Positions 18,379 through 42,493 of a stretch of 56,113 bases of DNA are shown piece after piece. This stretch comes from an uncultured Subdoligranulum sp. (GTDB lineage: Bacteria > Bacillota > Clostridia > Oscillospirales > Ruminococcaceae): assembly GCA_904390925.1 (NCBI GenBank), contig CAJFMB010000006.1, positions 1-56,113 of the forward strand, read 5' to 3'. The notes under the pieces were generated by a model. That model did not search any database, was not told the DNA's origin, and saw nothing but the letters and a program-made list of their open reading frames with translations. The stretch's first letter is position 1, and the number at the start of each line of letters is the position of its first letter. The position numbers and the translations under genes are program-made.

Positions 18379-18471
18379 GCACAAGAAAGCGCGGCAGGCG
18401 GAAACAGCACCTTGGACCGGCCCCGCCGCACCAAAACCGCAATGGGACCCGCAGAAAGGGGCATGCAGAGT

Positions 18472-20019
18472 ATGGAGCTGAAGGTGTTCAAAGATACCAT
18501 CGCCGCTTACGGCGGCCGGTGGGAGACAAGGCTGGAACTGCCGGTGGAAACCGAGATCCTGATCCCGGACTATCTGCCGGCGGTCTTCAAGATCGTCAAA
18601 TGTCTGGTGGAGCCGGTGATTTTGCAAAATCACACGGCTGCATCCAAATGGCAAGGGGAGGGGTATCTGCGCTGTACTGTCTATTACCAGTCGGACGAGG
18701 CAGGAGCACAATTGTACCGCATGGAACAGAAATTCCCCTTTGAAAAGACGGCGGACCTGCCGGAAACAGGCTGTCAGCAGGGACCTGCCGCCGTTTCAGG
18801 GGAACTGGAATATGTCAACTGCCGCGCCATCAGCGAGCACCGCATTGACCTGCGGGGAGCCTACGCGCTCAATGTCTCGGTCCAGATGGTGGACCAGCTG
18901 GAGCTGGTCAGTTCCCTGGCGGACTGCGGCATTGAACAGCGCACCCGGGTGCTGAACGGAAAAGCCTGTGCCGCAGCCGAGGAAAAAACCTTCACTGCCG
19001 AAACCCACATTGCGGTTCCCGGCAGCGATGCGGTTGTGCTGGACATTTCTGGCAGCTTCCAGCCGGAAAGCGTGACGGTGCTCACAGGGCAGGCCAATTG
19101 TCAGGGGACTCTGCGCATCCAGGCGGTCTACCGTCTTGCCGGCACCGAGGAACTGATGGCCTGTACCGCGGAACTGCCGGTGCGGCAGACGCTGGATATG
19201 ACCGGGGCTGCAGAAGGGGATGAGTGCCTGTTCTGGGGCGAGGTACTTGCCTGCACGCTGGAAGCCTCCGATTCCGGGCATGGTGATCCGGCGTTGACGG
19301 TTACATGGAAACTCCACGCGGAACTGTGGCACGACGTACAGTACACGGCGGTGGCCGATGCCTACTCCACCATCTGCCAGACGCAGGTGGATACCCAGTC
19401 CTGCCGCCTGCTGACCCCCGCGGCGGAGCTGCCCCAGACGGTGCAGGCCGAGGTAAGCGATGAACTGCCCGACCCGGACGCCCAGGTTCTCGGCTGCTTT
19501 GTCACATTGGGAGCACCGGTAGCCCAGCCGGGGGAGGAACCGGATACGGTACTCTTTGCGGGCAAGGGAACCGCGCACCTGTTCTGCTGCGATGCCCGGG
19601 GCGAACTGACCTGCTATGACAAGACCTTCAGCTGGCGGTTGCCCCAGACAATGCCCGGCACAGCGGCAGACTACTGCCTGCGTGCCCACGCCTGTGCGTC
19701 CAGGATCACCTCCGGCAAGGTGGGAAGCCGGATGCAGGTGTCGGTGGAGATCCGCCTTACCGGCAGACTGTTTGCCGTGCAGACCTGCCCCGCAGTACGG
19801 GAAGTGACGCTGGGGGAGGAATTCCCCGACAAGGCAGAGGGACCGGCGCTGTATCTGTATTACGCCTCGGCGGGAGAACGGATTTTTGACATTGCCAAGC
19901 GCTACCACGCCCGGGCAAAAGATCTGGTGGCCGCCAACCATCTGGAGGCCGATGCCGACACGCCTGTGCAGGAAATGACAACCGAGACCGCCTGCCTGTT
20001 GATCCCGGCGGCGCTGTGA
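18472..20019 (+). CDS. sipL: SipL-like SPOCS (DUF3794) and LysM spore morphogenesis protein
   Basis: A 515-residue protein with no signal peptide or membrane helix. The body carries DUF3794/SPOCS-like strand-rich units, first seen in LPVETEILIPDYLPAVFKIVKC near residue 21. Residues about 460-515 form a LysM-like module, GERIFDIAKRYHARAKDLVAANHL. This SPOCS plus C-terminal LysM layout is that of Clostridioides difficile SipL, whose LysM domain binds SpoIVA. Here spoIVA is the very next gene, which supports the call. The start has AAAGGGG 10 bases upstream; an ATG nine bases earlier is too close to it. The gene overlaps the upstream frame of spoIVA by GTGA. Confidence 0.85.
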   Translation: MELKVFKDTIAAYGGRWETRLELPVETEILIPDYLPAVFKIVKCLVEPVILQNHTAASKWQGEGYLRCTVYYQSDEAGAQLYRMEQKFPFEKTADLPETGCQQGPAAVSGELEYVNCRAISEHRIDLRGAYALNVSVQMVDQLELVSSLADCGIEQRTRVLNGKACAAAEEKTFTAETHIAVPGSDAVVLDISGSFQPESVTVLTGQANCQGTLRIQAVYRLAGTEELMACTAELPVRQTLDMTGAAEGDECLFWGEVLACTLEASDSGHGDPALTVTWKLHAELWHDVQYTAVADAYSTICQTQVDTQSCRLLTPAAELPQTVQAEVSDELPDPDAQVLGCFVTLGAPVAQPGEEPDTVLFAGKGTAHLFCCDARGELTCYDKTFSWRLPQTMPGTAADYCLRAHACASRITSGKVGSRMQVSVEIRLTGRLFAVQTCPAVREVTLGEEFPDKAEGPALYLYYASAGERIFDIAKRYHARAKDLVAANHLEADADTPVQEMTTETACLLIPAAL

Positions 20020-20033
20020 AAGGGGGACCCGAA

Positions 20034-21509
20034 GTGACGCAGGAACAGATTTATCAGAATATTGCCCGGCGCACCGGCGGCGATATCTATATTGGTGTGG
20101 TGGGCCCGGTGCGCAGCGGCAAGAGCACGCTGATCAAGCGCTTTGCCGAGCTGATGCTGCTGCCGCATATCCAGAACGAGGCCCAGCGCTCCCGGGCCAC
20201 CGATGAGCTGCCGCAGTCGGCCGCGGGGCGCACCATCATGACCACCGAACCCAAATTCATCCCCGAAAAAGCGGTGGAGATCCAGCTTTCCGGCGGCGGC
20301 AGTTTCCGCGCCCGGCTGGTGGACTGTGTGGGGTATATGGTACAGGGGGCGCTGGGCCATGAGGAGAACAATGCGCCCCGCCTGGTGAAAAGCCCATGGT
20401 TTGAAAATGCGGTGCCCTTCGATCTGGCTGCCGAGACCGGAACCCGGCGGGTTATCCGGGAGCATGCCACGGTGGGCCTGGTGGTGACCACCGACGGCAG
20501 CATTGCCGAGATTCCCCGGGAAAACTATCTGGAGGCGGAGCAGCGCATCGTCGCCGAGCTGGACGATATCGGCAAGCCCTACCTGATTCTGCTCAATTGT
20601 GTGGACCCGGACAGTGAGGCCAGCCGCAACCTGGCAGCCGGGCTGGAGCGGGACTACGGCCATCCGGTCATTCCGGTCAACTGCACCCAGGTTACCGCCG
20701 AAAAGCTGGATGCCATCCTCAAACAGCTTCTCTATGAATTTCCGGTGCAGGAAATTGCCGTCAATATGCCTGCCTGGGTCACCATGCTGGAGTCGGGACA
20801 CTGGCTGCAAAGTGCGGTATATGGGGCGTTGCAGCAGTATGCTGTCGGCATCCACCGCATGCGGGATGTGGCGGGCAAGAACCCGGAGATTGACTGCGAG
20901 TATCTCACCGGCGCAAGCCTGTGCGGAATGGATCTGGCTACCGGAAGTGTGCATATCACGCTGCGGCTTGCATCGGACATCTTTTATCGGATTCTCGGGG
21001 AACAGACAGGGCTGGACATTGTGGACGAGGCAACGCTTCTGCCCTGCGTGGTGGGGCTGGCGCGGGCCAAACGGGCCTATGACAAGATCAAGGGGGCATT
21101 GGACCAGGTGGAGGCCACCGGTTACGGCATTGTCATGCCGGATATCGACGAGCTGACACTGGAAGAACCCGAGATCGTCCGCCAGGGGGGACAGTACGGG
21201 GTGCGGCTGTCGGCCAGTGCGCCGTCGCTGCATATCATGAAAGCCACCATCCACACCGAGATTTCCCCAAGTGTGGGCAGTGAACAGCAGGGAGAGGAAC
21301 TGATCCACAGCATTCTTCAGGATTTCGAGAATGACCCCGGCAAACTGTGGAACACCAATATCTTCGGCAAAAGCCTCAATGCCCTGGTCAATGAGGGGGT
21401 GCAGGCAAAGCTTCTGCACATGCCCCAGGAAGCCCGCAGCCGTCTGCAGGTCACATTGGAACGGATCATCAACGACGGCTGTGACGGCCTGATCTGCATT
21501 TTGCTGTGA
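20034..21509 (+). CDS. spoIVA: Stage IV sporulation protein A (SpoIVA)
   Basis: Cytoskeletal ATPase that polymerises on the forespore and forms the basement layer of the spore coat. The 491-residue length is almost exactly that of the Bacillus protein. It opens with IARRTGGDIYIGVVGPVRSGKST, which contains the Walker A P-loop. It also shows TDELPQSAAGRTIMTTEPKF, DCVGYMVQGALGH and a hydrophobic C-terminus GCDGLICILL, all typical of the family. The GTG start is set by AAAGGGGGA about 6 bases upstream. That site overlaps the sipL stop, so the two are coupled. An earlier in-frame GTG at 20016 would bury it. Confidence 0.95.
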   Translation: MTQEQIYQNIARRTGGDIYIGVVGPVRSGKSTLIKRFAELMLLPHIQNEAQRSRATDELPQSAAGRTIMTTEPKFIPEKAVEIQLSGGGSFRARLVDCVGYMVQGALGHEENNAPRLVKSPWFENAVPFDLAAETGTRRVIREHATVGLVVTTDGSIAEIPRENYLEAEQRIVAELDDIGKPYLILLNCVDPDSEASRNLAAGLERDYGHPVIPVNCTQVTAEKLDAILKQLLYEFPVQEIAVNMPAWVTMLESGHWLQSAVYGALQQYAVGIHRMRDVAGKNPEIDCEYLTGASLCGMDLATGSVHITLRLASDIFYRILGEQTGLDIVDEATLLPCVVGLARAKRAYDKIKGALDQVEATGYGIVMPDIDELTLEEPEIVRQGGQYGVRLSASAPSLHIMKATIHTEISPSVGSEQQGEELIHSILQDFENDPGKLWNTNIFGKSLNALVNEGVQAKLLHMPQEARSRLQVTLERIINDGCDGLICILL

Positions 21510-22060: not shown

Positions 22061-22424
22061 CAAAAACGACTGGACCGTAAGCCGGGTTCTGTATTAAACG
22101 ACGATCTATCTTGACCTTGCGTCGCCGCAAGGCTCCGCGGGAAATCCCGCATGCCATCTCCGGGACGCGCGAGGCTCCGCATCATGTCCCATACGGATGT
22201 TGCTTCTGACAGGGTTTACATAGCCGCAAAGTCGCCAGTGCGCTGGTGAGCTCTTACCTCGCCTTTCCATCCTTGCCGGACCATTGCTGGTCAGGCGGTT
22301 TCTTTCTGTTGCACTATCCCTGGGGTCACCCCCGGCTGCCGTTAGCAGTTGTCATGCCTCTGAAAAGCCCGGACTTTCCTCAGAACGGACAAGCCGTCCC
22401 GCCGCCGTATGTTCCACTCGTTTG
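22061..22424 (-). ncRNA. rnpB: RNase P RNA (M1 RNA)
   Basis: Catalytic RNA that matures tRNA 5' ends. On the minus strand the conserved core GAGGAAAGTCCGGGC lies at 22367-22381. GGTAAGAGCTCACCAGCGC, containing the GAGCTCACC element, follows. ACAGAACCCGGCTTA closes the conserved 3' core. Both ends form helix P1: CAAACGAGTGGAAC at the 5' end pairs with GGTCCAGTCGTTTTTG at the 3' end. The roughly 364-base length is normal for a type A RNA. Ends are inferred from P1 and from the promoter. Confidence 0.95.
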
Positions 22425-23631: not shown

Positions 23632-25500
23632 GTGAAACCCCATAACGGCGGGACTTCGACAACTGAATATTCCAAAAACAGACACCGGCAGAGCACGCTG
23701 TCGGAACGTCTGGACGAGCATCGGATCAAGGTTACGGTCCGCCGCTGGCACAAGCGGGAGAAAAAGGAAGCCCGGCGTCATCGGTTCAGCCAGATGCTGC
23801 AAAAAATCCCGCACGCAGGCTTTATCGGGGAAGCCCTGTATATGATGGGCTTCTGGACCGAGTATGCGGTCATCAATGCGGGACGTGCAGTCCTGCGGGC
23901 CGCGATTGCCATTCTCTCTTTTACGGGCACGCTTCTGATGCTGATTCTGCGCCCGCTGGGGATTGGCATCGTCACTTTTCTGGAAGATCTGCTGGAACCG
24001 TTTGCGCACCTTGCCTCCGGTATGCGGCATATCCGTGCCCTGCCGCAGCAGCATCCGGAGGAAAGCACCCGTCAGCTGCGGGCGGAAAAATTCCAGTATT
24101 TCACACGCGGCGCAAAACAGTATCTGCCGCTGGTCTGGAACGCTTTTTCCTATCTGTTGCCTGTGGCTGCGCTGGTCGGTCTGGTCTGGGTGGTGCAGGC
24201 CCGTGTCACCCAGACTTATCGGCTGGAGGTCCGTGTCAACGGCGAGACGGTCGGTTACGTGGCCAGCGAACAGGTGTTTGACGCTGCGCGTGACGATGTG
24301 CAATCCCGTATTGCCAGCGCGCGGGCCATTCTGGAGGCTTCCGGCGTTACCACAGACGATTCCCAGTGGGATATTTCGCCTACCTATACCCTGGCGGTTT
24401 CCGATCAGCTGATGACCGAAGGGGAAGTGGCCGACGCTATTCTGCGGGCTTCCAGCGATGAAATCGGAACCGGAACCGCTGTCTATATTGACGGCGAGCT
24501 TCGCTTTGTTACCACCGAGGGTGACCATCTTCGGGCCTATCTGGAGGCCGTCAAAGCCCCGTATGAGGATGCTTTTGACTCGGATGTACGGGTAAGCTTT
24601 GTCCATGACATTGAACTGATGGACGGCGTTTTCTTCCTGTCCTCGATCGTGCCCTATGACACCGTTATCCAGACGCTCAGCGCTGCCACACCGGGAACCT
24701 ATTACACCACCGAGTCGGACGAAACCGCCGGTATGCTGGCCAGCGATCTGGGCCTTAGCTTTTATGATCTGCAGCAGATGAATCCGGACCTGACGGACAG
24801 CGAACAGCTTGTGTCGGCCGGTACCACGCTGACCACATCGCCGTCGGTGATGGAACTGCTGCAGGTCCAGGTTGTGCGTCGCCAGTCGGTTCTGGAGGAT
24901 GTCCAGTACGACACCGTCAAGACCCCGTCGGATGAGTATGATCTGGGCGAGGAGGTCGTCGTGCAGGAAGGCCAGCTGGGCCAGCAGGAAGTGCTGCAGG
25001 ATGTCACCTATGTCAACGGTGAACCGGTGGATATTTCCATTGTGCAGATCATTACGCTGCAGGAGCCGGTTTCCGAGCAGGTTCTGCTGGGCACCCATGT
25101 GGACAGCAATATGATTTCCCAGTCGGGTGACAGCACCTTCCTGTGGCCGGTTCCCGGGTACAGCCGGGTCAGTCGCTGGGTGGAAAACGGCCGTCCGGTG
25201 GCGGATATCCGTGCCGCCTTTGGCACCGAGATCATTGCGGCTGCTGCGGGTACCGTCATTACGGCCGAGGAAAATCCCACCTATGGATATTACATTGTGA
25301 TTGACCACGGCAATGGTTGGCAGACGCTGTACGCCCACATGTCCGGCTTTACCGTTTCGGTGGGCCAGTATGTCTCGGCCGGAGATACCATCGGCTATGT
25401 GGGACAGACCGGCGCCGCGACTGGTGATCATTGCCACTTTGAAATGTATTACAACGGGGAGCCCGTCAGTGTGCGGGACAACTTCCCGGATATCAGCTGA
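23632..25500 (+). CDS. Membrane LysM/G5/M23 protein, zinc site degenerate
   Basis: A 622-residue paralogue of the next gene. A basic N-terminal tail (about 1-60) is followed by hydrophobic segments near 85-115 and a transmembrane helix at about 167-190. The outer part has a LysM-like unit (about 355-400), a G5 domain (about 405-490) and a C-terminal M23 fold (about 500-615). M23 peptidases need HxxxD and HxH. Here the first motif reads NGRPVAD, so the zinc His is Arg521, while Asp525 and HCH (600-602) remain. It is probably a non-catalytic regulator or wall-binding protein, like EnvC or NlpD. The start is GTG, 8 bases after AAGGAG. Confidence 0.85.
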   Translation: MKPHNGGTSTTEYSKNRHRQSTLSERLDEHRIKVTVRRWHKREKKEARRHRFSQMLQKIPHAGFIGEALYMMGFWTEYAVINAGRAVLRAAIAILSFTGTLLMLILRPLGIGIVTFLEDLLEPFAHLASGMRHIRALPQQHPEESTRQLRAEKFQYFTRGAKQYLPLVWNAFSYLLPVAALVGLVWVVQARVTQTYRLEVRVNGETVGYVASEQVFDAARDDVQSRIASARAILEASGVTTDDSQWDISPTYTLAVSDQLMTEGEVADAILRASSDEIGTGTAVYIDGELRFVTTEGDHLRAYLEAVKAPYEDAFDSDVRVSFVHDIELMDGVFFLSSIVPYDTVIQTLSAATPGTYYTTESDETAGMLASDLGLSFYDLQQMNPDLTDSEQLVSAGTTLTTSPSVMELLQVQVVRRQSVLEDVQYDTVKTPSDEYDLGEEVVVQEGQLGQQEVLQDVTYVNGEPVDISIVQIITLQEPVSEQVLLGTHVDSNMISQSGDSTFLWPVPGYSRVSRWVENGRPVADIRAAFGTEIIAAAAGTVITAEENPTYGYYIVIDHGNGWQTLYAHMSGFTVSVGQYVSAGDTIGYVGQTGAATGDHCHFEMYYNGEPVSVRDNFPDIS

Positions 25501-25553
25501 TTTGTGTGTTGCAGCATTTCCGCAGGGTCTGTCCGGACAAAGGAGAATTTTGT

Positions 25554-27428
25554 TTGAAACAGCACATTGACGAAACGCCACAAAAGAATACCGAGGAATC
25601 TGCACGCAGCGGAAAATATTCGGACTCGCGCAATGACCGCCAGGTCCGGACAACGCTGCGCCGCTGGCATCGCCATCAGAAAAAAGAGGCCCGGCGGGAC
25701 CGGCTCAGCCAGATGCTGCAAGGCCTGCCTTACGCAACAGCCATCGGGGATGCGCTGTACATGGTCGGCTTCTGGGCCGAATATGCCGTGGTCTGTGCAG
25801 GACGTACCACACTGCGGGTGACAGTGGCAGTGGCATCCCATGTGGGAGCATTGCTGTTTTTGATTCTTCGCCCGCTGGGCATCGGCCTTGTGGTGTTTTT
25901 GGAGGATCTGTTCCAGCCATTCATCCGGCTTTCTTCCGGATTGCGCCATATCAAGGCGCTGCCGCAGCAGCATCCGGAGGAGGATGCCCGCCAGATCCGC
26001 GCAGAAAAATTCCAGTATTTCAAGCGTGGCACCAAGCTGTATCTGCCGCTGGTGTGGAACGCATTTTCCTACGTGCTGCCGGTGGCCGCGCTGGCGGGAC
26101 TGGTCTGGGTGGTTCAGGGGCAGCTGTCTGAAACCTATCATCTGGAAGTCCGCGTCAACGGCGAGACAGTAGGTTTTGTGGAGAGCGAACAGGTCTTTGA
26201 CAGCGCCCGTGAGGATGTTCAGTCCCGTATCAACAGTGCACTTGCCTCCATGCGGGATGCCGGTGTGGAAACGACCCAGGAGCAGTGGGACATCACGCCC
26301 ACCTATACCCTTGCAGTCTCTGATAACGTGATGACCGAGAGCGAAGTCGCCGATGCCATCATGCGTGCCTCCAGCGATGAAATCGGGGATGGCACCGCTG
26401 TGTATGTTGACGGTTCGCTGCGCTTTGTCACCACCGAAGGGGATCATCTGCGCAGCTATCTGGACGCGATCAAATCGCCCTATGAGGATGCCTTTGATGA
26501 AAACCGCACGGTGGATTTTGTCCACGACATCCGTCTGGTGGACGGGGTTTACTTCCTGTCCTCGATTGTGCCCTATGATACGGTTCTCAGCACCCTGAAC
26601 GAGACTACACCGGGCACTACATACACTGTGCCGGAGGACGGACAGACCGCACAGGAGGCCGCCGAAGCTGCGGGGACGGATTTTGCCACACTGCAATCCA
26701 TGAATCCGGCCCTGCAGACCGAGGAGGACGAGCTGACTGCCGGCACGGTGCTGACCACTTCGCAGCCCACTGCGGAGCTGCTTCAGGTCAAGGTGGTGGA
26801 GCGCCAGTCGGTGGTGGAGGAAATCCCATATGAAACGGTTGAGACCGAGTCGGATGAATATGACTTCGGCAAACGTGTCACCGTACAGGAAGGTCAGAAC
26901 GGCCAGCAGGAAGTGGTCAGCAATGTGACTTACATCGGCGGCAATGTGGTGGATGTGAGCATTGTACAAATCAATGTGATTCAGGAGCCGGTGGACGAAC
27001 AGATTGTTGTGGGTACCCATCTGTCCAACGGTATGGTTGCCCATACCGGCAGCGGAACCTTCTACTGGCCGGTCCCGAACTACAAATATGTCAGCCGCTG
27101 GATGAGTTCCGGCCATAAGGGTGCCGATATTGTGGCGCCGTACGGAACCCCCATTATTGCGGCGGACAGCGGTGTGGTCGAGGTTGCCGGTTGGCACAAT
27201 CATCCCTACGGATACGGAAACTATGTCATCATTGACCATGGCAATGGCTGGGAGACCTTGTATGGCCACATGTCTTCCATTGCGGTTACTGCAGGGCAGG
27301 CAGTCGAGGCCGGACAGGTCATCGGCTATGTGGGCAACACCGGATATTCCTTCGGCAACCACTGCCATTTTGAGATGTATTACAACAACACACTGGTCAG
27401 CGCACAGCAGTTCTTCCCCAATATGTGA
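25554..27428 (+). CDS. Membrane LysM/G5/M23 metallopeptidase, intact zinc site
   Basis: A 624-residue tandem paralogue of the preceding gene, clearly similar along its whole length; both have LPQQHPEE, AEKFQYF and YLPLVWNAFSY. The order is the same: basic tail, hydrophobic segments, transmembrane helix near 170, LysM-like unit, G5 domain and M23 peptidase. Here the zinc ligands are complete: GHKGAD (His521, Asp525) and HCH (603-605). It probably cuts peptidoglycan cross-links outside the membrane. The TTG start follows AAAGGAG by 7 bases and gives an N-terminus (MKQH) like that of the paralogue (MKPH). Confidence 0.88.
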   Translation: MKQHIDETPQKNTEESARSGKYSDSRNDRQVRTTLRRWHRHQKKEARRDRLSQMLQGLPYATAIGDALYMVGFWAEYAVVCAGRTTLRVTVAVASHVGALLFLILRPLGIGLVVFLEDLFQPFIRLSSGLRHIKALPQQHPEEDARQIRAEKFQYFKRGTKLYLPLVWNAFSYVLPVAALAGLVWVVQGQLSETYHLEVRVNGETVGFVESEQVFDSAREDVQSRINSALASMRDAGVETTQEQWDITPTYTLAVSDNVMTESEVADAIMRASSDEIGDGTAVYVDGSLRFVTTEGDHLRSYLDAIKSPYEDAFDENRTVDFVHDIRLVDGVYFLSSIVPYDTVLSTLNETTPGTTYTVPEDGQTAQEAAEAAGTDFATLQSMNPALQTEEDELTAGTVLTTSQPTAELLQVKVVERQSVVEEIPYETVETESDEYDFGKRVTVQEGQNGQQEVVSNVTYIGGNVVDVSIVQINVIQEPVDEQIVVGTHLSNGMVAHTGSGTFYWPVPNYKYVSRWMSSGHKGADIVAPYGTPIIAADSGVVEVAGWHNHPYGYGNYVIIDHGNGWETLYGHMSSIAVTAGQAVEAGQVIGYVGNTGYSFGNHCHFEMYYNNTLVSAQQFFPNM

Positions 27429-38724: not shown

Positions 38725-38762
38725 TTGTCGAAATATCGTACAAAACGAAGCGTGACGACAAA
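38725..38762 (+). promoter_or_regulatory. Two 0A-box-like sites upstream of the Spo0A-like locus
   Basis: TTGTCGAAA at 38725-38733 matches the core of the Spo0A box (TTTGTCGAAA). An inverted TTTGTCG lies at 38756-38762, about 30 bases away. They lie in the 250-base gap before the regulatory locus. That gap also holds a possible promoter (TTGCTT at 38792-38797 and TATATC or CATAAT at 38815-38825). A TACCCGG/CCGGGTA hairpin near 38846-38872 lies in the leader. A single 7-base match is not rare in 56 kb, so the value lies in the position. Confidence 0.4.
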
Positions 38763-38901
38763 GATGGCAAAAATCGTCCACAGGTTAGCTCTTGCTTTTG
38801 TCCGGGCGGCGGGTTATATCATAATAGTGTAATCATCTTGCGGCGTACCCGGATGTGCCAGCATACCGGGTAAGATAATTTTGGATACGGAGTGATCAGG
38901 C

Positions 38902-39204
38902 GTGAAGGAGAACGAGTGGTGTGTATATGTCCGCGAATATTCGGAGCTTCCCGGGCTGCAAAATGCCGGAAGTATCCGCTATTCGCTGGTACGGCAGGAT
39001 TCGGGACTCAGCCTGCGCGCGGAGCAGTTCCGGGCCGGGCAGTCGATACCGGTCAGCAGGGCACGATGCCTTTTGACCGGTGTGACGCGGCGCACGGCCG
39101 AAAACCTGCTGCGTTTCCTTTACGAGAATGCGGTGGAACCGTCCAGCATCTGTGCGGTGGTGTCTGACTGTCTGGAACAGCAGATCCTGCCGCAGTGCCG
39201 GTAA
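38902..39204 (+). CDS. Small protein, possibly DUF6514-like
   Basis: A 100-residue protein with a strand-rich N-terminal half (WCVYVREYSEL, IRYSLVRQDSG) and a helical part (RTAENLLRFLYENAVEPSS). Layout and size recall DUF6514 proteins of clostridia, a family without a known function; this match is uncertain. The start is GTG with GGAG 10 bases upstream. It lies 71 bases before the Spo0A-like gene and probably shares its transcript. Confidence 0.7.
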   Translation: MKENEWCVYVREYSELPGLQNAGSIRYSLVRQDSGLSLRAEQFRAGQSIPVSRARCLLTGVTRRTAENLLRFLYENAVEPSSICAVVSDCLEQQILPQCR

Positions 39205-39275: not shown

Positions 39276-40031
39276 ATGTCACAACCATCCGGGGCCATTC
39301 TCACTGCATTGTTTGCAGATGGCGACAGGGGACGGCGTGAGGCGGTCAAACTGTATGCTTCGGTCCAAAAGGAAATCCGGCTTGTCGCAGTGGTGGGAAC
39401 CGGCCGGGAACTGTTGCAGCAGCTGCAGGATGCCGTGGCGGTGGATGTGCTGATTGTGGACGCGCTGCTGCCGGACATGGGAATATTTGATCTTCTGTTT
39501 GAGCTGGCCCGGATGCGCTTGAAAGAGCCTCCGGCGGTTCTTGTGACGCTGTGCGCAGCCAATGAAGCCATGCGGCACAGGCTCTTGACAGCCGGAGCGG
39601 ATTTCATTATCCTAAAACCATACCATCTGGCCTCCCTGTTTGATACGGCTCTTTATACGGCAAACACTTCCCAGTCGCTGCAGGAACGGCGGGCCCGCTC
39701 CCACATCAACTGGCATCTGGCTGCCCTGAAGGCGCCTGCCTCCATGGAAGGGACGGACTATATCCGCTGGATTCTGTCGGAACTGGTACTTCGCACCCCT
39801 ACTGCCACTGCGGATGAGCTGTATCGCACCATTGCCATGATGGAGTCACACACCACGCTGAACACCATCAGCAAAGCAGTCGGACGCTCCGTTCAGGCAA
39901 TCTGGAAGCAGGCATCGCAGGAATATCTGGATCTGTGTGAGTATTTCGGGGAAGGTACAGATAAGCCGCTGTCCAACATGAAGCTGATCAAGGGGCTGGC
40001 GGTTCGTATCCGATGGGAACTCGGGCTGTAA
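39276..40031 (+). CDS. Divergent Spo0A-like response regulator
   Basis: A 251-residue protein with a receiver domain (1-125) and a C-terminal domain (about 144-251). The receiver keeps the acidic pair Asp15/Asp17, phospho-acceptor Asp62 in DVLIVDALLPD, Thr91 and Lys114 in IILKPYHL. This last stretch is close to FILKPFDM of Bacillus Spo0A. The C-terminal part follows the Spo0A effector pattern: WHLAALKAPASMEGTDYI, ELYRTIAMME, ISKAVGRSVQAIWKQA and KPLSNMKLIKGLAVRIRWEL. The helix matching the Spo0A recognition helix differs at several positions. It may be this species' Spo0A or a paralogue. GGAG is 11 bases upstream. An ATPase gene follows. Confidence 0.75.
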   Translation: MSQPSGAILTALFADGDRGRREAVKLYASVQKEIRLVAVVGTGRELLQQLQDAVAVDVLIVDALLPDMGIFDLLFELARMRLKEPPAVLVTLCAANEAMRHRLLTAGADFIILKPYHLASLFDTALYTANTSQSLQERRARSHINWHLAALKAPASMEGTDYIRWILSELVLRTPTATADELYRTIAMMESHTTLNTISKAVGRSVQAIWKQASQEYLDLCEYFGEGTDKPLSNMKLIKGLAVRIRWELGL

Positions 40032-40091: not shown

Positions 40092-40931
40092 ATGGAAAGC
40101 AAGGAAATCCGCACAGCAGAAACCGCACAAGTCGATATGCCGGCTGATGAACTGGCACTGCGGGGCGGCCTTCATGGCCGTATGGCGGAGGCATTCTGTA
40201 CTCTGCAAAGCTCGGTCGATGCGCTACAGCGGTATCTTGACAGCAATCTGTCCCTGCAGGCCAGACCGAAAGTTCAGGGACTTCTGGACGAGATGAACGA
40301 CCGGATTGCCTGCCTGGAACGGTTGTCCTACAATGCGGCGCGTCTTGCGACGGGGGCGATCTCCCGCGGCACCGAGGATCTTGCGCCGCTGGAACTGACG
40401 GATTATCTCGGCGAACTGACATCCTGCACCAACGAAACGCTGGCGATGCGTGGGTTTGGTGCCCGCATCGTGTTTGAAAACAACAGCGGACAACCGCATA
40501 CCTGGATTCAGGCCGGCAGCGATCTGCTGGACGGAATTCTGATGAATCTTTTGTCCAATCTGCTCTGGCAGCGCCGTGATGGAATCATGCGGTTGACGCT
40601 GCTTCCCGGCCGGATTTTGCAGTATACCGACAACGGCCCGGGTATGGCCCCGGAACTGGCCCGGGCACTGCTGGAACAGGGCAGGCCGCCGCGTGAAATC
40701 CTGGGAAGGGGCGCATTGGGCCTGCTTCTTGTGCGGGATTACAGCATCGCCATGGGTTGGCATCTGACGGTGAAAGAGGGGACCGGTCTTTGCATTCAGT
40801 TCGCTTTTCCGCAATTTGAAGCACCTGCCAATCTTGTCTTGTGGGATGGTGCGGCAACGCGCAACAGCTTTTTGCATACCCATCTGGACCGGGAACTGAA
40901 TGGTGTGTTTGGAATTCTGACGGAACCCTGA
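40092..40931 (+). CDS. Soluble histidine-kinase-like ATPase
   Basis: A 279-residue cytosolic protein with a C-terminal GHKL ATPase domain. The N box is LMNLLSNLLWQ (Asn152/Asn156), the G1 box is TDNGPGMAP (about 179-187) and the G2 box is GRGALGLLLVRDY (205-217). The N-terminal 20-90 region forms two helices like a dimerisation domain, with a single candidate phospho-His, His28 in GLHGRMAEAF. The usual H-box Pro is missing. There is no sensor or membrane part. It sits 60 bases after the Spo0A-like gene, so it is probably its kinase, phosphatase or a Spo0B-like phosphotransferase. Confidence 0.8.
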   Translation: MESKEIRTAETAQVDMPADELALRGGLHGRMAEAFCTLQSSVDALQRYLDSNLSLQARPKVQGLLDEMNDRIACLERLSYNAARLATGAISRGTEDLAPLELTDYLGELTSCTNETLAMRGFGARIVFENNSGQPHTWIQAGSDLLDGILMNLLSNLLWQRRDGIMRLTLLPGRILQYTDNGPGMAPELARALLEQGRPPREILGRGALGLLLVRDYSIAMGWHLTVKEGTGLCIQFAFPQFEAPANLVLWDGAATRNSFLHTHLDRELNGVFGILTEP

Positions 40932-41147: not shown

Positions 41148-41855
41148 ATGGCAGTGAAATACAAACGCGTTCTGCTGAAAGTCAGCGGTGAGGCTCTGGC
41201 CGGCGATAAGGGCTCCGGTTTTGATGAGGCTGTGATTGCCTCCATCTGCGCCGGTATTGCCGAGGCCTACCATGCCGGTACCCAGATCGGCATTGTTGTG
41301 GGTGGTGGTAACTTCTGGCGGGGCAGATCCAGCGGCAAAATGGACCGGATGGACGCCGACAAGATTGGTATGCTGGCCACTGTCATGAATGCGCTGGCCC
41401 TGAAGGATGCGCTGCGCCAGGCGGGTGTCCCTGCAATGGTTATGACCAGTGCAGCCATGCCCCAGGTGGCGGAAACCTTCACCAGTGACAAGGCCATCGC
41501 TGCTTTGGAATCCGGCAAGGTGGTCGTTTTTGGCGGTGGTACCGGCAATCCCATTTTCTCCACCGATACTGCCAGCGCGCTGCGTGCACTGGAAATCAGC
41601 GCCGACATCATGCTGAAAGCCACCATGGTGGATGGCGTTTATGACAAGGACCCGCATCGCTATCCGGATGCTGTCCGCTATGATACCCTGACCTTCACCT
41701 GCGTGCTGGATGAGCGCCTCGCTGTGATGGACTCCACTGCCGCCACGCTGTGCCGGGACAACGGCCTGCCGATTCTGGTCTTTGACCTGGCCGACCCGAA
41801 GAATATCGCCCGTGCTGTCAACGGCGAAATGGTCGGCACCCTGGTCAGCGAATAA
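41148..41855 (+). CDS. pyrH: UMP kinase
   Basis: Phosphorylates UMP to UDP. The 235-residue amino-acid-kinase-family protein has KRVLLKVSGEALAG at the start, IVVGGGNFWRGR near residue 45, FGGGTGNPIFSTDTASALRA near 130 and KATMVDGVYDKDP near 160. GGAGG is about 8 bases upstream. It opens the pyrH-frr-cdsA-dxr-rseP-ispG-polC run seen in many Firmicutes. Confidence 0.96.
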   Translation: MAVKYKRVLLKVSGEALAGDKGSGFDEAVIASICAGIAEAYHAGTQIGIVVGGGNFWRGRSSGKMDRMDADKIGMLATVMNALALKDALRQAGVPAMVMTSAAMPQVAETFTSDKAIAALESGKVVVFGGGTGNPIFSTDTASALRALEISADIMLKATMVDGVYDKDPHRYPDAVRYDTLTFTCVLDERLAVMDSTAATLCRDNGLPILVFDLADPKNIARAVNGEMVGTLVSE

Positions 41856-41938: not shown

Positions 41939-42493
41939 ATGAGCAGTACCACCAAGATTTACGAAGAAAAAATGAACAACTGCATCCACCACCTTAACCG
42001 TGAGCTGGGTGCCATCCGCGCCGGCCGTGCCAACCCCGCCGTGCTGGACAAACTGGTTGTCGATTACTACGGCGCGCCCACCCCGGTCAATCAGGTGGCC
42101 GCGATTGCAGTCGCCGAGGCCCGCATCCTGACCATCACCCCCTGGGACGGCAAACTGGTCAAGGCAATCTCCAAGGCCATCCAGACCAGCGACATCGGTA
42201 TCAACCCCATTGACGACGGACATACCATCCGTCTGGTTTTCCCGGCACCCACTGAGGAGCGTCGCAAACAGCTGGCCAAGGAAGTGCAGAAGCTGGGCGA
42301 GGAAACCAAGGTTGCTGTGCGCAATGTCCGCCGTGAGGCTATGGACAAGTTCAAGGCCATGAAGAAGGCCGGCGACATCACCGAAGATGACCAGAAGAAT
42401 CTGGAAGAAGAGACTCAGAAACTGACGGATAAATTTGTCAAACAGATTGATTCCATCTGTGAGGATAAGAACAAGGAAGTCATGGAGGTCTGA
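41939..42493 (+). CDS. frr: Ribosome recycling factor
   Basis: Works with EF-G to split post-termination ribosomes. The 184-residue protein has the family features RELGAIRAGRANPAVLD near residue 21, VDYYGAPTPVNQVA, LTITPWDG-like ILTITPWDGK, INPIDDGHTIRLVFPAPTEERRKQL and a helical C-terminus. Length and order match the norm. AAAGGAG is 6-8 bases upstream. Confidence 0.96.
   Translation: MSSTTKIYEEKMNNCIHHLNRELGAIRAGRANPAVLDKLVVDYYGAPTPVNQVAAIAVAEARILTITPWDGKLVKAISKAIQTSDIGINPIDDGHTIRLVFPAPTEERRKQLAKEVQKLGEETKVAVRNVRREAMDKFKAMKKAGDITEDDQKNLEEETQKLTDKFVKQIDSICEDKNKEVMEV

Follow-up and report, generated by a model that had tools for sequence, protein, structure and literature searches.

Introduction

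In Bacillus subtilis and Clostridioides difficile, the regulator Spo0A (PF08769 / TIGR02875) joins a receiver, bearing a phospho-Asp, a switch Thr and a Lys, to a Spo0A_C domain. According to the accessible parts of one report (PMC3485338), Spo0A contacts G2, C4 and G5 of the TGTCGAA box, and the affinity of C. difficile Spo0A is about tenfold lower when G2, C4 or G5 is changed. It is difficult to study how a transcription factor, once duplicated, can abandon the site that it used to bind without harm to the cell.

The window considered here, a stretch of DNA of 56,113 nucleotides, carries a spo0A-like gene at 39276..40031 on the forward strand. Like Spo0A of B. subtilis and C. difficile, its product has a receiver with these three residues and a Spo0A_C domain, and goes with candidate tandem 0A-like half-sites before the operon; G2, C4 and G5 of the 0A box are retained in a large number of related genera. 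Unlike them, it scores 55.5 bits against the NCBIfam equivalog spore_0_A (TIGR02875), for which the cut-off is 200, and so falls outside that family; its residues at E213, R214, R217 and H218 are changed; and it lies with DUF6514-like and HATPase genes at pyrH, not at spoIVB. Among the papers listed by searches for additional Spo0A copies or for this regulator in Gemmiger, none concerned this locus.

The interpretation that we favour, and that sequence comparison makes probable, is an autoregulatory Spo0A paralogue with shifted DNA specificity. It builds on what computation demonstrates, namely paralogy, conserved neighbours, purifying selection, a changed recognition helix and, outside Gemmiger, the geometry of a tandem box. 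The gene would belong to a second Spo0A lineage, frequently found with pyrH and distinct from the canonical regulator of sporulation. In this lineage, two Spo0A_C domains would read head-to-tail half-sites with a spacing of 10 bp, positioned at a constant distance before the -35 of their own operon. The half-site would derive from the 0A box TGTCGAA and would have changed in step with the recognition helix, with the result that different DNA sequences are expected to be recognised by the paralogue and by canonical Spo0A.

Domain organization and receiver residues

The open reading frame at 39276-40031 (+) encodes 251 residues, with GGAGAT a few bp 5′ of the ATG; the coordinates and frame given in the sequence-only reading are correct. 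The protein consists of a receiver at about residues 12-128 (phospho-Asp D62), a linker and a diverged Spo0A_C domain at 148-242, which is the architecture of the Spo0A superfamily. Its Pfam scores are 40.7 bits for Response_reg (E 3e-10) and 23.7 bits for Spo0A_C with hmmscan (E 4.9e-5, cut-off 25), the latter rising to 25.4 bits, above the cut-off, in a six-frame search. Among the seven near-clade members of the paralogue, Spo0A_C scores range from 25.4 to 34.8 bits. At E <= 0.01, 30 genus members matched only Response_reg (23 members) and Spo0A_C (18), and 29 relatives matched Response_reg (25) and Spo0A_C (22), with one stray HEM4 match. The alternative named beforehand, a C-terminal part closer to ANTAR or some other family, was not observed: no competing C-terminal Pfam match to ANTAR or another output domain was found at this threshold in the 30 + 29 proteins. 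The frame is a real gene, with matches in 35/35 genus genomes and dN/dS of 0.10-0.34, and its product is a member of the Spo0A superfamily distinct from Spo0A itself.

It had also been stated that the receiver keeps all phosphorylation residues. This holds for D62, T91 and K114 but not for the acid pair, which reads D15-G16. Among 30 aligned genus members, D62 is present in all 30 and D15 in 16; position 114 has K in 27 and R in 3, and position 91 has T in 22 and S in 2. The canonical Spo0A of the window's genome also has a single acid in the pair (MTDTG). Of 32 aligned relatives, 11 no longer have the receiver Asp.

A Spo0A_C match alone does not mark a sporulation regulator. Genomes of the family, G091 and G004 among them, contain numerous ORFs that match Spo0A_C alone and, at about 115-160 residues, are too short to hold a receiver; total Spo0A_C matches number 8 in G004 and 6 in G091.

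Coexistence with a canonical Spo0A

The frame at 39276-40031 is called a paralogue because the genome of the window (G000) has a second, canonical spo0A, on contig C92 (G000:C92:3943-4716). The product of that gene has the intact helix SRVERAIRHAIEVAW and scores 157.6 bits against Spo0A_C; the gene lies downstream of an ORF for SpoIVB (Peptidase_S55, 260 bits), with TGTCGAATTGTGTCGAA upstream of spo0A. The two proteins share their domain order and the single acid of the receiver pair, and differ in that the canonical copy has the intact helix, the high score, a TGTCGAA tandem and the site at spoIVB. The sequence-only reading had offered a Spo0A paralogue as one interpretation, proposed a search for a second spo0A in the genome and remarked that the gene is not beside spoIVB; the search recovered the canonical copy, which supports the first point and occupies the place named in the last. 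The gap between the SpoIVB ORF and canonical spo0A is about 1.6 kb in G000 (L217, G000:C92, 2299-3942) and about 235 bp in G054 (L190), and the larger gap in G000 is possibly an insertion.

The genus of the window's genome, presumably Gemmiger, was counted over 35 genomes. The diverged copy was found in 35/35 of these, with no internal stops in the matches, and canonical Spo0A, as a strong Spo0A_C match, in 34/35, with none in G306 (88% complete) and a partial one in G320. A search of genome contigs with the single protein found no relative, and the eight weak extra matches of a search with the genus alignment were canonical Spo0A. In the tree, the 16 Gemmiger rows form one clade (100/100), and 31 rows, comprising Gemmiger and most other copies, stand on one side of a branch (99/98). 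The copies of G046, G031, G266 and the genus of G018 fall elsewhere, some on long branches, which leaves their placement unsure.

The path that joins the two nearest species, G000 and G054, has a summed branch length of 0.50 for the paralogue; for canonical Spo0A it is 0.08, about six times shorter. Over four species pairs, dN/dS is 0.15, 0.10, 0.34 and 0.30 for the paralogue, 0.01, 0.01, 0.03 and 0.03 for canonical spo0A and 0.02-0.06 for pyrH, ratios that are rough because many dS values exceed 1. The paralogue changes rapidly and is subject to purifying selection. Decay of a functionless duplicate would also be rapid, and could account for the acid pair that is incomplete in many members, for a partner without a conserved His (see below) and for the phospho-Asp lost in 11/32 relatives; it is nonetheless highly improbable for a gene carried without internal stops by 35/35 genus genomes, with dN/dS well below 1 and with conserved neighbours and promoter.

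Operon neighbours and the HATPase partner

The operon of the paralogue begins with a gene for a DUF6514-like protein of 100 residues (38902..39204, +), whose score of 17.9 bits falls short of the cut-off (23.9); among three proteins encoded at the same locus in other genomes, that of L141 scores 38.5 and the other two have no match. The paralogue is followed by a gene for a soluble, histidine-kinase-like HATPase_c protein of 279 residues (40092..40931, +), which at 28.4 bits lies above the cut-off of 26.4 for that domain. The next conserved gene encodes UMP kinase (41148..41855, +) and is followed by a further gene at 41939-42493; we take these two to be pyrH and frr.

Across 30 genus loci, the HATPase gene is present in all 30, a relative of the DUF6514-like protein in 29 (tblastn) and pyrH in 28 within the fetched stretch. 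The neighbourhood of DUF6514-like, Spo0A-like, HATPase and pyrH genes recurs in other genera of the family. Outside Gemmiger, 25 of 36 loci have pyrH 0.9-3.2 kb downstream of the Spo0A-like gene on the same strand, and 19 of these 25 have a relative of the window's DUF6514-like protein upstream. In a sample of 100 genomes of the family, every genome whose pyrH is at least 67% identical to that of the window carries a copy, among the matches listed, and these copies adjoin pyrH except in G018. Genomes of g32, outside that sample, have pyrH-linked copies at 65-66% pyrH identity.

The locus resembles a two-component pair in that a kinase-like gene is adjacent to the regulator and some relatives retain an H-box. 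It differs in that the His position in Gemmiger is G while the receiver Asp is kept in 30/30. By eye, the GLSHEI H-box of related kinases reads GGLxGR in 30/30 Gemmiger members, and no phosphoacceptor His is conserved in the 30 aligned partners. Spo0B offers a comparison for a kinase-like partner without its His. An H-box (SHEFKTP or SHELKTP, by eye) is found in the kinase-like gene after the regulator in G114, G119, G046 and G046b, of which G114, G119 and G046b have regulators that are not linked to pyrH. Altogether, the His is kept, by eye, in these four and in G025, G137, G207, G202, G134, G073 and G266; it is replaced in G008, G127, G257, G047, G031, G018, G205 and G259 and also in G058, G221, G275, G012, G130, G020 and G081; and in G110, G247, G052, G171, G287 and G052b its position is not assignable by eye. 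With the His replaced in many partners and the Asp lost in 11/32 relatives, phosphotransfer appears to have been given up on repeated occasions, with both genes retained.

The HATPase partner probably descends from a cognate histidine kinase, with loss of the phosphoacceptor His in Gemmiger; because of that loss, its likely effect on the receiver would be through ATP-dependent binding or phosphatase activity and not through phosphotransfer. The paralogue could activate or repress its operon; we infer this effect, as well as the roles of phosphorylation and of the partner.

The recognition helix

When 25 canonical Spo0A sequences are aligned with 32 relatives and 30 genus members, NTISKAVGRSVQAIW of the paralogue (residues about 195-210) falls under canonical SRVERAIRHAIEVAW; four sequences that are canonical or outside the lineage (G110c, G187, G115 and G249) were left out of this alignment and of the box and pairing counts below. 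The sequence-only reading had set the helix nine residues late, at SVQAIWKQASQEYL. Its claim that the Arg and Glu residues reading the DNA are mostly replaced stands after this correction, with E213S, R214K and R217G. In what we take to be Bacillus numbering, the changes in the window's protein are S210N, R211T, E213S, R214K, R217G and H218R, and W224 is unchanged. Canonical copies have E213, R214, R217 and H218 in 25/25, at which the window has S, K, G and R. Arg at position 218 is, with D62, invariant across 30/30 genus members. In 4/4 species pairs, dN of the helix (20 codons) is lower than that of the whole C-terminal domain.

A candidate operator in Gemmiger

A candidate operator, GGCAAAAATCGTCCA, lies upstream of the operon at 38766..38780 (no strand assigned) and is found there in 7/7 near-clade species, with a mismatch in G324. 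Read on the minus strand, it would contain two half-sites, GGACGAT and TGCCATC, 10 bp apart. A -35-like TTGCTT (38792..38797, +) begins 17 bp beyond the C in the box's second CG, and the -10-like region (38815..38822, +), as read from the sequence, offers TATATC at a spacing of 17 bp and TATCAT at 19. Aligned promoters of the seven near-clade species show GGCAAAAATC[GA]TCCA upstream of TTGCTTTT, changed in G324. Elsewhere in Gemmiger the boxes are CGTAGGAAAACGTAGG and others. The near-clade box pattern, searched upstream of the loci, matched in the seven near-clade species and at one unrelated place in G052. The window contains TGNCGAA 17 times in forward and 19 times in reverse orientation, where about 27 are expected at equal base frequencies by hand calculation; these counts carry no weight in the reading given here.

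A box rule read on the minus strand matched 19/30 Gemmiger loci at distance 17, against a shuffle mean of 1.6 and a maximum of 4; this distance, like the 13 used outside Gemmiger, was derived on the loci on which it was counted. The same rule matched 8/30 loci at distance 27, possibly overlapping the first set; the place matched in G297 is off the aligned promoter box, and G054 and G298 have another equally scoring place. A looser rule gave 19/30 against a shuffle mean of 5.75 (max 14), which is weak. In five held-out species of the genus, outside the 30 fetched loci, the strict rule matched 0/5, and the relaxed rule 2/5, a number reached by 54/200 shuffles and hence not above chance; tandem boxes are visible by eye in held-out G311, G321 and G322, and partly in G325. 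The box geometry in Gemmiger, the window included, is only suggestive, and it is conservation across the seven species that argues for it. The paralogue presumably binds the candidate box, whose register in Gemmiger would be inverted.

These observations bear on the idea that the paralogue no longer binds DNA, its C-terminal fold being kept for protein contacts while another factor controls the operon. The result in the held-out Gemmiger species would be in keeping with this, as would the helix of the 30 Gemmiger members, in which Glu or Asp at 213 occurs in 0/30 and R217 is kept in 2/30, and the Spo0A_C match of only 18/30 at E <= 0.01. The invariant Arg 218 in 30/30 members argues for a helix still in use, as do the helix dN below that of the C-terminal domain in 4/4 pairs, though over 20 codons, and the box conserved before the operon in 7/7 near-clade species; we regard loss of DNA binding as unlikely.

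In several Gemmiger species (L191, L193, L195 and group C), a motif ending in ATTGC, often ATATTGC, is seen some 10-20 bp before the tandem box. Immediately before the operon promoter of other Gemmiger subclades and of other genera (groups A, B, C, F and G), a tRNA-like sequence in either orientation can be made out by eye.

Tandem boxes in other genera

Other genera have analogous but different boxes, such as GTGACGAAAAATGACGATTTTTTC, CGACGGAAAACGACGGA and TGACGCATTTTGACGCA. In 40 loci across lineages, boxes having already been seen in some of them, a perfect 6-bp repeat containing CG and followed by TTG was found with period 10 in 14 loci, period 11 in 4 and other periods in 0-1; 40 shuffles gave a mean of 0.98 and a maximum of 3. 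The non-Gemmiger rule at distance 13 matched 12 of the 32 loci, which are those of its derivation (30 shuffles: mean 0.07, max 2). When bases 3 and 4 were left free but equal in both half-sites, 21/46 loci fitted, all 21 with a T-A-N3-T -10, compared with a mean of 0.27 and a maximum of 1 in 60 shuffles, and 0 when the -10 was included.

A held-out set of ten unused paralogue loci was assembled outside Gemmiger, leaving out G105a, which is canonical-like, and nine canonical loci. The original rule, unchanged, matched 3/10 (300 shuffles: mean 0.07, max 2), and 6/10 with the score one lower (shuffles: mean 0.89, max 4). A rule with base 3 free, adopted after these loci had been inspected, matched 7/10 (200 shuffles: mean 0.97, max 5), with 0-3 at other distances and 0-5 with other periods; four of the seven loci are from genera on which the rules were derived (g58, g81) and three from g32. 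Canonical spo0A is preceded by an exact TGTCGAA tandem in G000 and G106 and by a degenerate one in G302, and none was found in the other 15 of the 18 canonical loci scanned.

Tandem 0A-like half-sites spaced by 10 bp, at a fixed distance from a putative sigmaA-like -35, are thus well supported outside Gemmiger. In G025, G137, G207, G052b and G171, no DUF6514-like gene was found and the box directly precedes the Spo0A-like gene, which argues that the box goes with the regulator.

Helix residues and bases of the half-site

In the 21 loci, R217 together with R218 (or with K218, in G119) accompanies AC at bases 3-4; C218 (G046b) and S218 (G341) accompany TC, H217 (G020, G025, G137, G207 and G336) accompanies AA and Q217 (G052b) AT. 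Residue 217 is accordingly paired with base 4 as R-C, H-A (5 loci in 2 genera) and Q-T (G052b). For residue 218 and base 3, the 26 loci that score at least 5 of 6 on G2, C4 and G5 (16/42 lie below) give R-A 17 times, R-C twice, Q-T three times and C-T, S-T, K-A and K-T once each. Among the 42 loci, no box match was found in G134, G031, G266, G205, G259, G409 and G381; G409 (Q217, T4 expected) has A4 at distance 23, one extra turn away.

K218 is paired with both A and T (T3 in G114), and in Gemmiger G321, in an assumed register, R218 is paired with T; a rule that R218 always goes with A3 is weakened by G321 and G114. Since most R218-A3 loci are related by descent, they amount to few independent changes. 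Bases 3 and 4 appear to shift with residues 218 and 217, imperfectly.

A more specific version of the autoregulatory reading is a recognition series in which residue 217 would set base 4 and residue 218 base 3 (R217-C4, H217-A4, Q217-T4; R218-A3, H/Q/C/S218-T3), control would be of self only and a His-less ATP-binding partner would run the receiver. As a whole we hold it to be tentative, and rather doubtful. A regulator that controls little beyond its own operon, with a partner that does not act by phosphotransfer, would leave both regulator and operator free to drift from the canonical 0A code. Canonical Spo0A keeps its helix, while the paralogue and its apparent self-operator vary by genus in gut bacteria, with the intermediates alive, and each helix form predicts a testable helix-to-base pairing.

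Targets

Strict box searches find the operon and little else, and autoregulation is proposed for this reason. With up to 3 mismatches, TGACGAAAAAWGACGATTTTT occurs once per genome, at the operon, in 4/4 genomes; with up to 2, CGTAGGAAAACGTAGG occurs once at the operon in 5/5 genomes, with one weaker extra place in G299. With 1 mismatch, GGCAAAAATCRTCCA is found at the operon in 7/7 near-clade genomes and at 7 other places in total. Two of these are in the window's genome, one of them exact: a second copy of the near-clade box, GGCAAAAATCATCCA, away from the operon at G000:C22:22826-22840 (L186). A one-mismatch copy lies upstream of canonical spo0A in G054; cross-regulation of canonical spo0A was considered and set aside, the six other near-clade genomes having no counterpart with up to 3 mismatches. 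Of the two possibilities raised in the sequence-only reading, a shifted DNA specificity would fit the helix changes at canonically invariant positions together with the changed 0A-like tandem boxes, and a regulon of its own survives in a minimal form, the operon itself, to which a few more sites, or degenerate ones, may belong.

The box could instead be read by canonical Spo0A, or by another regulator, that controls the paralogue operon, with the paralogue acting downstream. The half-sites are 0A-like and in many genera keep G2, C4 and G5, the bases contacted by Spo0A in the accessible parts of PMC3485338, and G054 has the copy upstream of canonical spo0A just described. A perfect TGTCGAA also stands in the window's operon promoter at 38726, 40 bp before the candidate operator, but it reads TGATGAA in G054. 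Moreover, the reading residues are identical in 25/25 canonical copies, yet the box differs between genera, and the boxes of G020, g26 and G052b have A4 or T4, against the roughly tenfold loss of affinity given in the same parts of that report (PMC3485338). Control by canonical Spo0A or a third regulator is, in our estimate, quite unlikely, and an autoregulatory paralogue continues to be the preferred reading.

Other features of the window

A profile match identifies spoIVA at 20016-21509, and SpoIVA is found in 34/35 genus genomes, 33 of them above the cut-off. The ORF preceding it (18412-20019) is presumably of the SPOCS/LysM type. The tandem long ORFs at 23632-25500 and 25506-27428 appear to be duplicates of a single protein, their peptidase-like C-terminal parts being alike, and we take them to be of the M23/LysM/G5 type. 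The minus strand carries a class A RNase P RNA at 22063-22420 and a tRNA-Asp at 1-75.
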